A stretch of 64,000 nucleotides of DNA from Halobellus sp. LT62 (GTDB taxonomy: Archaea > Halobacteriota > Halobacteria > Halobacteriales > Haloferacaceae): the NCBI RefSeq assembly GCF_037031285.1, contig NZ_JAYEZO010000002.1:744001-808000 (forward strand), written 5' to 3'. A program made the position numbers and the translations under genes. The notes under the pieces are model-generated. The model was given only the letters and a program-made list of their open reading frames with translations. It had not been told where the DNA came from and did not search any database. Below, piece after piece: positions 14,319 through 39,629 of the stretch; position 1 is the first letter of the stretch; every line of letters begins with the position of its first letter.

Positions 14319-14400
14319 TATAGTAGCGTTTGAACTGATCGCTCATCTGACCACACGCTGTTGTGGATCGAGTGAGTGAAGAGATACAAACGCTACTATA
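14319..14400 (+). repeat. 82-bp palindromic element, copy A (terminal inverted repeats)
   Basis: Perfect 14-bp terminal inverted repeats, TATAGTAGCGTTTG at 14319-14332 and its complement at 14387-14400, enclose a core with an inner stem (CCACA 14351-14355 with TGTGG 14362-14366). A second, diverged copy lies at 38565-38648. It sits between two convergent genes. A small non-autonomous mobile element or a structured RNA/terminator is possible; no reading frame is present. Confidence 0.75.
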
Positions 14401-35335: not shown

Positions 35336-35422
35336 TCGTCCCGTGGCGGTTACGGGCCGCTACACCGGAACAACGCTCACAGTGTTATCGGTAACCCGGT
35401 GGAAAGAGTTACCTATCTATCG

Positions 35423-35437
35423 ACCGGATCTTCCGGT
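35423..35437. promoter_or_regulatory. 15-bp palindrome before the vapB-like start, probable operator
   Basis: ACCGGATCTTCCGGT (perfect 6-bp arms, 3-bp centre) ends one base before the antitoxin ATG and lies between it and a TATA-like AGTTACCTA near 35407-35415. Ribbon-helix-helix antitoxins usually repress their own operon at such palindromes. Confidence 0.5.
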
Positions 35438-35713
35438 ATGTCCACCGCAGTAAAGGTCGATGAGGGGGCGAAATCCCGGTTGGAGGAGCTGCAGGCCGAG
35501 ATACGCCTTCGAACGGGAACGAAGGTCACCCAGCAGGAGCTCCTGACGCGTTTGATCGACGACGCCTACGAATCTCGTGAGGACGTCATCGATTCCTTCC
35601 GGCGATCGACTGTCCCGCTTTCCGACGCCGAAAAAGCGGCAATGCGGAAGGGACGTATCAGTTCGGGAGTCGAAACTGACGAGGACGATATCGACGAGAT
35701 ACTGTACGGATGA
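35438..35713 (+). CDS. VapB-like antitoxin, ribbon-helix-helix type
   Basis: 91 residues. The N-terminal half (VKVDEGAKSRLEELQAEI, TGTKVTQQELLTRLIDDAYE) fits a ribbon-helix-helix DNA-binding fold; the charged C-terminal tail (about 60-91) would bind and block the toxin. It overlaps the toxin gene by 4 bases (ATGA), the standard antitoxin-first order. Start 35438 is preceded by a perfect palindrome that is a likely autoregulatory site. Confidence 0.82.
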   Translation: MSTAVKVDEGAKSRLEELQAEIRLRTGTKVTQQELLTRLIDDAYESREDVIDSFRRSTVPLSDAEKAAMRKGRISSGVETDEDDIDEILYG

Positions 35714-36141
35714 CGGTCCTCGTCGACACAGGAGTTCTATATGCCGAACACGATACCGATGCGACGAGACACGAGACGGCGGCAGACGCGCTCGAAACCG
35801 TCTACGACGGCGAGCTCGGCCATCCGTATATCAGCGACTACGTGTTCGACGAGGCGATCACGCTGGCACGCAGGCGAACGGGGTCGTTCTCCTCGGCAAA
35901 GCGACTGAGCGATCGACTCCGCGGTCGAGATGTGTATCCTCGCGTGTTCGAGATGCAGTACGTCACGGCGGCAGTCTTTGCCGACGCGGTGAACGTCTTC
36001 GAGCAGTACGACGATCAGCAACTGAGTTTCACGGACGCGACGATTGTCGCGTTGGTCGAACGGTACGACATCGACCGAGTCTTGAGTTTCGACGGCGATT
36101 TCGACGGTATCGTCGATCGGATAGATCCAGCCGACCTGTAG
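35710..36141 (+). CDS. VapC-like PIN-domain toxin
   Basis: 143 residues. PIN-domain acidic residues are in MTVLVDTGVLYAEHDTD (Asp6), SDYVFDEAI (Asp/Glu), SFTDATIVALVERYDIDRVLSFDGDFD (Asp residues of the metal site). Members are Mg-dependent RNases, often acting on tRNA or rRNA. It is coupled to the upstream antitoxin. Location inside a variable glycosylation island fits a stabilising module. Confidence 0.9.
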   Translation: MTVLVDTGVLYAEHDTDATRHETAADALETVYDGELGHPYISDYVFDEAITLARRRTGSFSSAKRLSDRLRGRDVYPRVFEMQYVTAAVFADAVNVFEQYDDQQLSFTDATIVALVERYDIDRVLSFDGDFDGIVDRIDPADL

Positions 36142-36166: not shown

Positions 36167-37366
36167 TTACTGCTCGACGTCGCGCAACACCGTCTCGCCC
36201 GGCGGGATGCCGGCTCCACTGGCCACTTTCACGCCCGCGTTCAGACTCACGTTGATACCCGTCTTCACGCCGTCGCCGAGGACGACGCCCAGTTTTCGAC
36301 GGCCCGTGTCGACGCGCTCGCCTTTCACGGTCATCTTCACCGACGAGTCGTCGTGGCGCAGATTCGCTACCTTCGTCCCCGCGCCCAGATTCACGTCCCG
36401 ACCGAGCACCGAGTCGCCGACGTAGGACAGATGCGGCACCGTCGCCTCGGAAAAGAGGATCGAGTTCTTCACCTCGACGCCGTGACCCACGCGCGCATCG
36501 GGACCCAACACCGTCGCCCCGCGAACGTACGCGTTCGGGCCGACCTCCGAACCGGGCAGCAGTACGACCGGGCCCTCGATGCGGACCCCCTCGCGCACTG
36601 TCGCGCCCTCGGCGACGACGACGTCTCCGTCCAACTTCGCGTCCTCCGCGACATCGCCCCGAATATCCCGCTCGATCTCCGCTAAAAGCAACTCGTTCGC
36701 GCGCAACAACTCCCACGGGCGGCCGACGTCGAGCCAGCGGCCCTCGTACTCGACGACCGAGATATCGTGCCCGTCCGAGAGCAGCAGCTCCAGCGTGTCG
36801 GTGATCTCGTACTCGCCGCGCTCGCTTCGCTGCGTCCGGTCGATGTGCTCGAACACCTCCGGCTCGAACGCGTAGCAGCCCACGTTCGCGAGGTTCGTCG
36901 GCGGATCGGCGGGCTTCTCGACGATCGCCGCCATCGAGTTCTCCGAATCCACGCTCACGACGCCGTAGGAGCGCGGGTCTTCGACGGGCGTCGTCGCGAT
37001 GGCGTAGCCCTCCGCCTCGGCGAGCGCGCGCGGCAGCTCGGGGTCGACGAGGACATCGCCGTTGAGGACGATAAACCGGTCGTCGACGACCTCGCGGGCC
37101 TGCTCGATCGCGTGCGCGGTCCCCGCGGGGTCCGTCTGTTCGACGTAGCTGACGGGCGTGCCGCGGTACTCCTCGCCCAAGCGTTCGACGACGTCCGACC
37201 CTCGGTAGCCGATCACGACGACGAACTCGTCGACGACGTCGACGCAGGCGTCGAAAACGTGTTCGAGCAGCGGGCGACCGGCGGCGGGAAGTAGCGGCTT
37301 CGGCCGGTGATCGGTGAGGGGGTGCATTCGGGTACCCTGTCCGGCCGCGAGCACGACTCCGTACAT
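36167..37366 (-). CDS. GlmU-like bifunctional nucleotidylyltransferase/acyltransferase
   Basis: 399 residues. MYGVVLAAGQGTRMHPLT, KPLLPAAGRPLLEHVF, LNGDVLVD, and VEKPADPPTNLANVGCYAF define the nucleotidyltransferase part. The C-terminal beta-helix (about 245-399) holds NAYVRGATVLGPDARVGH and the GlmU-like KVANLRHDDS...KGERVDTGRRKLGVVLGDGVKTGIN. This C-terminal segment is the acetyltransferase-type active-site region, so GlcN-1-P acetylation plus uridylylation is likely. It is the third nucleotidyltransferase in the island; this copy, high in GC and with a full C-terminal motif, may be the housekeeping one. Confidence 0.92.
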   Translation of the reverse strand: MYGVVLAAGQGTRMHPLTDHRPKPLLPAAGRPLLEHVFDACVDVVDEFVVVIGYRGSDVVERLGEEYRGTPVSYVEQTDPAGTAHAIEQAREVVDDRFIVLNGDVLVDPELPRALAEAEGYAIATTPVEDPRSYGVVSVDSENSMAAIVEKPADPPTNLANVGCYAFEPEVFEHIDRTQRSERGEYEITDTLELLLSDGHDISVVEYEGRWLDVGRPWELLRANELLLAEIERDIRGDVAEDAKLDGDVVVAEGATVREGVRIEGPVVLLPGSEVGPNAYVRGATVLGPDARVGHGVEVKNSILFSEATVPHLSYVGDSVLGRDVNLGAGTKVANLRHDDSSVKMTVKGERVDTGRRKLGVVLGDGVKTGINVSLNAGVKVASGAGIPPGETVLRDVEQ

Positions 37367-37417
37367 ACGAGTGACAGACGGGATACCGCCGTATAGATTC
37401 CGTGGTCGTCGACGGCA

Positions 37418-37828
37418 TCACTCGGGAGTCACTGACTCGCCGGAGTACGCGTCGAGGAGTTCCCACTCTTCTCGCATCAGTTCTCGAACCCCGTGTTCGA
37501 GAATCCCCTCACCGAGCGAGGTCGCACGGTAGTATGAATAGAGCCCGTCGCTGGATGATTCCTTGCGCTTTCGGTTTGCGACGAGGCCGACATCGACGAG
37601 CGTATCGAGGTGATAATGGAGGGTGTTAGATTCGATATCGAGCGCCTCTTTGAGCTCTGTCGCGCTTTGGTCACCCGATTCAACGAGACGATTCAGTATC
37701 CGAAATCGGGTTTCGTTTCCGATTGCCTGCTGCATTTCGAGATACTCTTCGAGCGAGAGCAGGCTGTGCTCAGGGAGCAATCTCGGGTGTTCGCCCGAAT
37801 CGTGAGTCGATCGGTTCGTCTCGGCCAT
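37418..37828 (-). CDS. Winged-helix transcriptional regulator (ArsR-like)
   Basis: 136 residues. A helix-turn-helix is seen in ETRFRILNRLVESGDQSATELKEALDIE with the recognition helix SNTLHYHLDTLVDVGLV and a wing that follows (KRKESSSDGLYSYYRA). The N-terminal 30 residues are acidic and probably disordered. It is divergent from the gene at 37922, with a long palindrome and both TATA boxes in the 93-base gap, so it probably controls itself and that neighbour. The signal it senses is unknown. Confidence 0.88.
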   Translation of the reverse strand: MAETNRSTHDSGEHPRLLPEHSLLSLEEYLEMQQAIGNETRFRILNRLVESGDQSATELKEALDIESNTLHYHLDTLVDVGLVANRKRKESSSDGLYSYYRATSLGEGILEHGVRELMREEWELLDAYSGESVTPE

Positions 37829-37850
37829 ACCTCGGATTGAACACCACGGG

Positions 37851-37858
37851 CAATAAGC
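37851..37858 (-). promoter_or_regulatory. TATA box of the winged-helix regulator gene
   Basis: GCTTATTG on the minus strand is centred 26 bases before the ATG at 37828. Its upstream edge overlaps the first bases of the palindrome at 37856-37880, so a bound regulator would block the promoter. Confidence 0.5.
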
Positions 37859-37880
37859 ATTCGCTGACTCAGCGAGTGCT
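37856..37880. promoter_or_regulatory. 25-bp palindrome between divergent promoters, probable operator
   Basis: A perfect 15-bp core, TCGCTGACTCAGCGA (37861-37875), is flanked by AGCA (37856-37859) and TGCT (37877-37880), giving 11 of 12 matched arm positions. It lies between the regulator TATA box (37851-37858) and that of the gene at 37922 (37894-37902), an ideal position for one repressor to control both. Confidence 0.65.
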
Positions 37881-37893
37881 GAATACTACATTT

Positions 37894-37902
37894 TTTATAT
37901 AT
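37894..37902 (+). promoter_or_regulatory. TATA box of the NDT-like gene
   Basis: TTTATATAT in an AT-only run is centred about 25 bases before the ATG at 37922, implying a leaderless transcript. It is the strongest TATA-like site in the right half of the island. Confidence 0.6.
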
Positions 37903-37921
37903 TGAACTGGGTAGTGGCGAT

Positions 37922-38569
37922 ATGCGCGAGCGAATCAGGGAAACCCTCGGCGATCTCGCTCACTCGGAGTTTCTGGTGTATCTGATGGGGCCGTACAAGG
38001 CATTTGATATTGCAGAAACCATCAAGCTATCCGAAGAGGCTGGTGTAGCAACGAAAATCCCAGAGAGCGTCGATTTTGGGACGCTCGTAGATTCCGATGT
38101 TGCCCTCGATCAAGACGAAGCTGTACTCGATCTGCTACTCGATGTTCGGGACCGGCTTCGAACGAATCCCGGTGTAAACGCGTTTCTCGCGATCGATATC
38201 GATATTCCCCTCGAAGAGATGGACGCGGGAACACAGAGCATCGAGTTTGCGCTTGCGAGCAATGCGATAATTTACCTCGTACCGAGGGTCGGAGATAATC
38301 TCGGGGTCGGGATCGAGACTGGCTCCGTTTTAGAAGCAATCTATCGCGACGGTCAGACGACTGATGAGGAAACAGCGAACAGCCACACCGAACGTGTCGC
38401 GTTCGTCCACGAGTCTGGCGTTCGAAGTGCGATGATCGCAGCGCTCCAAGAGCGATGGGACGCACGCGTCTACTCCTACACAGACCGAGACGACCTCACG
38501 CGACAGATTCGGCTCTTCGTCCGTGACCTCGCTCGCAGAGAACAACGCGGGGAGCTACCGGAATTATAG
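37922..38569 (+). CDS. Unknown protein with nucleoside deoxyribosyltransferase/TIR-like features
   Basis: 215 residues. The N-terminal strand FLVYLMGPYKAFD resembles the YLAGP loop of nucleoside 2-deoxyribosyltransferases. AFLAIDIDIPLEEMDAGTQSIEFALASNAIIYLVPR then GVGIETGSVLEAI resembles their D...E/GxExG catalytic region, a fold shared with TIR and related NAD-cleaving domains. The first half has a helical insert rich in Asp. No certain function can be given. It is divergent from a winged-helix regulator with a shared palindrome. Its TAG stop lies inside the inverted repeat of an 84-bp element. Confidence 0.8.
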   Translation: MRERIRETLGDLAHSEFLVYLMGPYKAFDIAETIKLSEEAGVATKIPESVDFGTLVDSDVALDQDEAVLDLLLDVRDRLRTNPGVNAFLAIDIDIPLEEMDAGTQSIEFALASNAIIYLVPRVGDNLGVGIETGSVLEAIYRDGQTTDEETANSHTERVAFVHESGVRSAMIAALQERWDARVYSYTDRDDLTRQIRLFVRDLARREQRGELPEL

Positions 38570-38648
38570 TGGCGTTGGCACCTGATCGCGCATCCGACCG
38601 CACGCTGTCGTGCGATCCAGTGAACGAAGACGTGCAAACGCTACGATA
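38565..38648 (+). repeat. 84-bp palindromic element, copy B
   Basis: Ends TATAGTGGCGTTGG (38565-38578) and CAAACGCTACGATA (38635-38648) form imperfect inverted repeats (11 of 14). The core matches copy A at 14319-14400 in order and spacing with about four fifths of bases identical. The inner stem here is CGCACG/CGTGCG (38599-38614), where copy A has CCACA/TGTGG, so paired positions have changed together. It overlaps the stop codon of the upstream gene by 5 bases. Confidence 0.75.
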
Positions 38649-38708
38649 TATCGCTCTCTGCACAGCAATCCGGAACCCCTTTGATGCAGCCCCGTGGCTG
38701 TGTCAACG

Positions 38709-39629
38709 ATGGATTACGACGACGTCACGGTCCTCGTACCCACGTACAACGAGGCCGAGACGATCGGCCAGGTGATCGACGACTTTCGCGATCACGGGTT
38801 CGACGACGTCCTCGTCGTCGACGGCGGCTCCGACGACGCTACCGACGAGATCGCCGAAGAGCACGGTGCACGCGTCGTCTACCAGTCCGAGTCAGGAAAG
38901 GGACAGGCGGTTCGAGAGGGCGTTGACGAACACGTCGACCGCGAGTACGTCCTGATGCTCGACGGCGACGCGACATATCGAGTCGAGGACGCCGACGCGA
39001 TGCTCGAACCGCTTTTCGAAAACGAGGCCGAGCACGTCATCGGCGACCGCTTCGCAGATCTGCGCGAGGGCGCGATGACGCGTTTCAACCAGATCGGCAA
39101 CCGGATCATCAATCGCGGGTTCGCGTACGTCCACGGCGAGAACTTCGGCGACATCCTCTCGGGCTACCGCGCGTTCACCCGCGAGTCGTTCCTGCGGATG
39201 ACGCTCACCTCCGACGGCTTCGGCGTCGAGACGGAGATGGCCGTCGAATGCGCCAAGCGTGGCATCCGCACGACGGTCGTCCCGATCACCTACCTCCCGC
39301 GGCCGTCCGGATCGGATACGAACCTCAGACCCGTCCGCGACGGTGGGATCATCTTCTTGGAACTGTACCGCCGCGCGAAGACCAATAATCCGCTCTTTTA
39401 CTTCGGAAGTCTTGGCGTCCTCTCGACGCTCACCGGCCTCCTCATCGCCGTCTACGTCCTCGTCGAGTGGGTCACCGTCGGGATCTCCCACGAGGTGATG
39501 GCGGTCGTCTCCGGCTTCGGGATCATCGTCGGCGTCCAACTGTTGATGTTCGGTGTGCTCGCCGACCTCATCCTGACGCTGCATCGCGACACGCTGCAGA
39601 AGATCGACGAGGAGACGCAATCCGAATAA
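38709..39629 (+). CDS. aglJ: AglJ-like dolichyl-phosphate hexosyltransferase
   Basis: 306 residues: GT2 domain with VTVLVPTYNEAETIGQVI, VVDGGSDDATDE, the DxD-like MLDGDATYRVEDAD, FGDILSGYRAFTRESFLRM and PITYLPRPSGSDTNLRPV. Two C-terminal membrane helices follow (about 232-255 and 262-290). This matches AglJ, which loads the first hexose onto dolichol phosphate for N-glycosylation in haloarchaea. The start at 38709 is preferred; an upstream GTG at 38694 would add five residues. It marks the right edge of the island that begins with aglB. Confidence 0.92.
   Translation: MDYDDVTVLVPTYNEAETIGQVIDDFRDHGFDDVLVVDGGSDDATDEIAEEHGARVVYQSESGKGQAVREGVDEHVDREYVLMLDGDATYRVEDADAMLEPLFENEAEHVIGDRFADLREGAMTRFNQIGNRIINRGFAYVHGENFGDILSGYRAFTRESFLRMTLTSDGFGVETEMAVECAKRGIRTTVVPITYLPRPSGSDTNLRPVRDGGIIFLELYRRAKTNNPLFYFGSLGVLSTLTGLLIAVYVLVEWVTVGISHEVMAVVSGFGIIVGVQLLMFGVLADLILTLHRDTLQKIDEETQSE

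Follow-up and report, generated by a model that had tools for sequence, protein, structure and literature searches.

The window, by which we mean the whole 64-kb stretch of DNA that was analyzed, contains a pair of divergent genes separated by a spacer of 93 bp (37829-37921), and the pair and its immediate surroundings comprise the following features:

37418-37828, minus strand: winged-helix regulator gene, 136 aa, HTH_20/ArsR-like (Pfam HTH_20, E 3e-12)
37852-37857, minus strand (read 37857-37852): TATA-like box CTTATT of the regulator, assigned from sequence; CTTA(T/A) in most close relatives
37856-37880, no strand: inverted repeat and predicted operator, 25 bp with 11 of 12 positions paired; core TGACTCA at 37865-37871
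37894-37901, plus strand: TATA-like box TTTATATA of the DUF7509 gene, assigned from sequence; kept in relatives
37922-38569, plus strand: DUF7509 gene, 215 aa, full-length match to Pfam PF24349 (E 7e-83)
38565-38648, no strand: MITE-like dispersed repeat of 84 bp, inserted where the DUF7509 gene ends and outside the conserved module

All elements of the pair as first described, the reading frames and their strands, the 93-bp spacer, both TATA-like boxes and the palindrome, were borne out by analysis of the open reading frames, Pfam searches and an inverted-repeat check. The larger protein belongs to PF24349, as evidenced by a score of 277.6 bits against a curated Pfam cut-off of 27; DUF7509 is already a Pfam family with no described function, and a search of PubMed Central found no papers naming it. 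Its motifs YLMGPY and GIETG occupy residues 20-25 and 130-134, respectively. The window copy of the regulator has no cysteine residue, and Pfam recognized no added ligand domain in it. With a G+C content of 54.5% the pair differs from the flanking genes, for which the values are 68% and 63%.

The inverted repeat consists of two 12-nt arms (37856-37867 and 37869-37880) around a single central nucleotide. Among shuffled 93-bp spacers about 0.07% contain a comparable repeat by chance, and the entire window holds eight comparable sites, some of them overlapping, versus a shuffle mean of 2.25, so that the palindrome is significant within its spacer, yet not unique across the 64 kb. We rejected conservation of the full 25 bp, as among close relatives the core alone is kept, and in Halobellus rufus, the nearest relative identified (89% identity in the DUF7509 protein), the right arm of the palindrome has diverged. 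The core CTGASTCA, the center of the palindrome in the window, keeps a fixed position some 60 bp ahead of where DUF7509 starts in 19 of 19 close-clade loci (a few of them redundant), where the TATA box and, downstream of the core, a CTGAA-like element are kept as well, and this supports a conserved operator core. Elsewhere in the genome the exact core TCGCTGASTCAR is present just twice, a count similar to that of a reversed-pattern control, and we consequently claim no regulon.

Both TATA-like boxes are located about 24-25 nt from the respective ATG, a distance suggesting that both transcripts may be leaderless. The inverted repeat overlaps the regulator TATA by 2 bp and covers the BRE region of that promoter, while it stops 13 bp short of the DUF7509 TATA without touching it, at about -42 to -66 relative to the DUF7509 start and upstream of the TATA/BRE of this gene. 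The overlap fits autorepression of the regulator through a shared predicted operator. The winged-helix protein would bind the conserved TGASTCA-centered element between the two start codons and mask the BRE and the TATA edge of its own promoter, and in the same position would sit just upstream of the DUF7509 BRE and TATA, thereby setting the output of that gene. The original prediction had described the enzyme as tightly repressed. This was not borne out, in that the operator is placed as expected for repression of the promoter of the regulator itself, and from the same position the effect on DUF7509 could be either repression or activation. In the case of activation, which is compatible with any reading of the enzyme, the regulator bound upstream of the BRE would recruit basal factors for DUF7509 and silence its own gene. 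The palindrome is clear of the DUF7509 TATA and overlaps the regulator TATA/BRE, as such a mechanism would have it, but the argument is purely one of geometry, and a site upstream of TATA and BRE can be occupied by a repressor as well as by an activator. We consider activation a serious possibility with a somewhat less than even chance.

The pair is flanked on the left by a sugar nucleotidyltransferase gene (36167-37366, minus strand) and on the right by a family-2 glycosyltransferase gene (38694-39629, plus strand). In four congeners these two genes are neighbors, the matching stretches being some 60-160 bp apart (G333 is one example), and Halobellus rufus has the insertion in common with the window. 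The pair is thus inserted into an intergenic spacer and is horizontally mobile, as supported by the short spacer in the four congeners, by its patchy distribution and by its frequent location on plasmids. It had been placed within a mobile island; the pair itself is indeed an insertion, but the flanking sugar genes adjoin each other in congeners that lack it. Two other congeners (L082 and L083) carry orc1/cdc6-like genes, named from sequence features, at the site corresponding to 37367-38693, and together with the short spacer in the other four this suggests that the site may be an insertion hotspot. Further to the left, a 104-aa reading frame with no Pfam match and a PIN-domain reading frame that follows with a 4-bp overlap (35399-36141) have the look of a VapBC-type toxin-antitoxin system.

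The MITE-like repeat at 38565 starts within the DUF7509 gene, whose stop codon is contained in its first TATAG. The element as a whole is palindromic, with terminal inverted repeats of 17 bp (TATAGTAGCGTTTGCAA ... TTGCAAACGCTACTATA) and, inside them, a hairpin in which changes sometimes affect both arms at once. A second copy lies in the window at 14319-14400, about 40 copies are found in the genome and many in most congeners, and the element is missing from this site in Halobellus rufus. A search of Rfam with the 84-bp repeat returned no match.

In 86 of the 103 loci, a set with some redundancy, DUF7509 has a homologous winged-helix gene pointing away from it, and these loci include subfamilies that have little sequence in common with the window protein. 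The winged-helix gene went undetected in 12 loci, in most of which the copy is truncated or close to the end of a contig; the remaining five are arranged differently, as in L014 and L017, where about 1.5-1.7 kb separate the genes. Protein distances of the two partners are correlated with a Mantel r of 0.98 (81 pairs), and inside four subfamilies the values are still 0.81-0.91. Regulator and DUF7509 protein therefore form a real unit whose members are inherited together and co-evolve, and the constancy of the divergent gene along with the correlation of distances supports a dedicated regulator. No third gene common to the loci was seen in 13 annotated plasmid regions.

DUF7509 is present in 213 of 391 genomes of Halobacteria, as well as in Haloferax volcanii among the controls, and the distribution is patchy. 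A sample of 148 genomes across the phylum gave eight matches, all from the order to which the window belongs; none of the samples contained the family outside Halobacteria. Several genomes have two to four copies and many contain decayed fragments. A viral origin was considered and rejected, since relatives of DUF7509 were absent from the phage records and viral contigs searched.

Structure prediction and a fold search, two of the checks proposed with the original prediction, pointed to an NDT-type fold, that of the nucleoside 2'-deoxyribosyltransferases. AlphaFold models of two members of the family (mean pLDDT 76 and 75, pTM 0.76) both show an alternating beta/alpha fold, and a Foldseek search of the PDB placed the CMP N-glycosidase MilB at the top for both, with DNPH1 close behind; the best E-values of 6e-4 and 3e-3 are weak, with TM scores of 0.46-0.63 and rmsd values of about 5-7 Å, and flavodoxin-type folds are not far behind. 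The top match in a viral library was a protein of Gordonia phage Ghobes. A sequence-profile search carried out directly against the PDB gave nothing credible.

The window model also matches NDT structures (8pqs, 9emx), as would be expected if DUF7509 were a genuine nucleoside 2'-deoxyribosyltransferase with a salvage function on unphosphorylated nucleosides. MilB outranks these structures for both models, however, a phosphate-binding SAM motif is retained, none of 44 DUF7509 members matches PF05014 (Nuc_deoxyrib_tr) at E-values up to 10, and the 13 annotated plasmid contexts include no conserved nucleoside-salvage neighbor, all of which makes this function highly improbable.

A closer connection emerged from profile comparisons with haloarchaeal DNPH1 orthologues, a set obtained from matches in 17 of 194 genomes, one of them weak, whose members hit the rat and human DNPH1 entries of the PDB at 1e-35 to 1e-38. 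Clear DNPH1/Rcl orthologues (L142-L157) were found in 16 of the 194 sampled Halobacteria and are absent from the genome of the window. Using hhalign, 44 DUF7509 sequences aligned with these orthologues at E 1.6e-3, and 85 more diverse ones at E 5.8e-5 with a probability of 66%, which had climbed from 16% once divergent members were included; the match is limited to the C-terminal half. In the controls a reversed decoy gave E 0.2 and a TIR profile E 0.25.

The alignment places E132 on E104 of DNPH1 and the sequence S169-A-M on the phosphate motif S128-A-M, where E104 is the nucleophile and S128 of the partner chain binds phosphate (PMC10603095). A nucleophilic glutamate at the start of helix 4 is a trait of the NDT superfamily, and E132 occurs in all 85 sequences without exception, as do G128, G130, G134 and S169, the counterpart of the partner-chain serine. 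Models, profile alignment and the constancy of E132 together support an NDT-type fold with a conserved active-site glutamate. The most conserved positions of the family, invariant or nearly so, are MGPY (22-25), D92, Q105-S106, GxGxExG with E132, and S169; D92, Q105, S106 and S113 each vary in one of the 85 sequences. Two active-site residues have been exchanged. At the position of the general acid (D80 in DNPH1, D78 in MilB) is S106, a serine in 84 of 85 sequences, and the second phosphate-binding serine (S98 in DNPH1, S97 in MilB) is replaced by N126 or threonine. With the general acid changed to serine family-wide, DUF7509 is to be regarded as a variant and not as a proven member of the nucleotide N-glycosidases, and given the missing match to PF05014 and the two exchanged residues we did not file it with DNPH1 or MilB.

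The protein had been called NDT/TIR-like, and of this the NDT-type fold with its conserved glutamate is largely supported, while the relation to TIR NADases is not, as the TIR profile gave no match. A TIR-type NADase, or a generator of an NAD-derived signal, would be in line with the TIR/SEFIR structures among the fold matches (3vbc, 5for, 4c6t) and with the catalytic glutamate on a related fold that TIR and NDT domains have in common. Profile similarity to TIR NADases (TIR_2, ThsB) is absent, though: the haloarchaeal profile, TIR_2 by Pfam, gave E 0.25-0.34 in hhalign versus 5.8e-5 for DNPH1, and the S169-A-M phosphate motif and the strand-1 tyrosine are features of DNPH1 and NDT. We therefore attach very little probability to NAD as the substrate. 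The nearest likeness is with nucleoside-5'-monophosphate N-glycosidases (MilB, DNPH1/Rcl and the phage enzyme DmtZ) rather than with TIR proteins.

Motif order, the glutamate in (L/F)GVGxExG, the serine in SAM(I/L) and the strand-1 tyrosine are common to DUF7509 and DNPH1/Rcl. DUF7509 differs by serine for Asp80 and asparagine or threonine for Ser98, by its length (215 versus about 140 aa), by the lack of BLAST similarity (BLASTP with the window protein against a haloarchaeal DNPH1 found nothing) and by the divergent winged-helix gene that almost always accompanies it. MilB, a CMP/hmCMP N-glycosidase of Streptomyces, has the nucleophilic glutamate and is the best fold match of both models, but is an enzyme of antibiotic biosynthesis with 10-13% identity to DUF7509 and retains Asp78. 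DmtZ is an NDT-like enzyme of phage Ghobes that hydrolyzes dAMP, has Asn77 in the usual place of the aspartate and loses its activity in the E103A variant (PMC12884076). It resembles DUF7509 in the absence of the usual aspartate, and the top viral match is a Ghobes protein, but it is a phage enzyme encoded beside DutZ, it contains asparagine rather than serine, and the available text describes no winged-helix partner.

From sequence and models it appears on the whole probable that DUF7509 works like DNPH1 and MilB. The protein would be dimeric, Ser169 from the partner chain gripping the 5'-phosphate of a nucleoside monophosphate, and Glu132 would attack C1' to form a covalent (deoxy)ribose-5-phosphate intermediate as the base departs. 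As Ser106 replaces the usual aspartate, the acid would need to be supplied by another group, for which Asp92, present in 84 of 85 sequences, is the best candidate; DmtZ, with an asparagine at this position and nevertheless active, indicates that activity is still possible. The main alternative, in our estimation unlikely, is a catalytically dead sensor of the same fold that binds a nucleoside monophosphate or related signal and relays it, for example to the winged-helix protein. Loss of the acid aspartate and of the second phosphate-binding serine across the family would agree with this, as would a co-evolving partner in which no ligand domain was recognized. However, a nucleophilic glutamate in all 85 sequences, together with D92 and Q105-S106, exceeds the needs of binding alone, and DmtZ (PMC12884076) provides an example of an active enzyme without the aspartate. 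For the reading as a whole, a mobile two-gene unit in which a winged-helix regulator controls a divergent nucleotide N-glycosidase of the NDT superfamily, we estimate a probability of about 0.58.

As candidate benefits of such an activity we propose control of nucleotide pools or the depletion of nucleotides in response to viruses or stress. A pair that is mobile, patchily distributed, often decayed, present in several copies and equipped with its own regulator has the usual profile of accessory genes, defense genes included. The phage-defense role suggested originally was not borne out, with no PADLOC match to the DUF7509 protein at E-values up to 10, no conserved defense neighbors by annotation in the 13 plasmid contexts and no viral copies, and we now consider it rather unlikely. 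About equally doubtful is a module for conflict or stress, restricted to haloarchaea and often carried on plasmids, whose N-glycosidase with the aspartate-to-serine exchange, controlled by the winged-helix protein, would when triggered destroy nucleoside monophosphates and so limit the replication of viruses or plasmids.

New here are a biochemical assignment, open to testing, of an uncharacterized haloarchaeal family found in about half of the sampled Halobacteria, and the finding that this family is accompanied by its regulator almost throughout. The link to DNPH1 and MilB supplies residues (E132, S169, D92, S106) and substrates to examine, and with a near-constant regulator and a conserved operator core the control of the pair can be tested in a genetic model archaeon. 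If active, the protein would imply that the chemistry is possible with serine instead of the canonical aspartate, and would bring a nucleotide-cleaving enzyme into the archaeal mobile gene pool.

A separate haloarchaeal family of about 210 aa (L132, L134-L141) came to light because of a weak match to PF05014. Its members have a TIR_2/ThsB-like domain with a conserved glutamate, followed by a conserved, cysteine-bearing C-terminal part.
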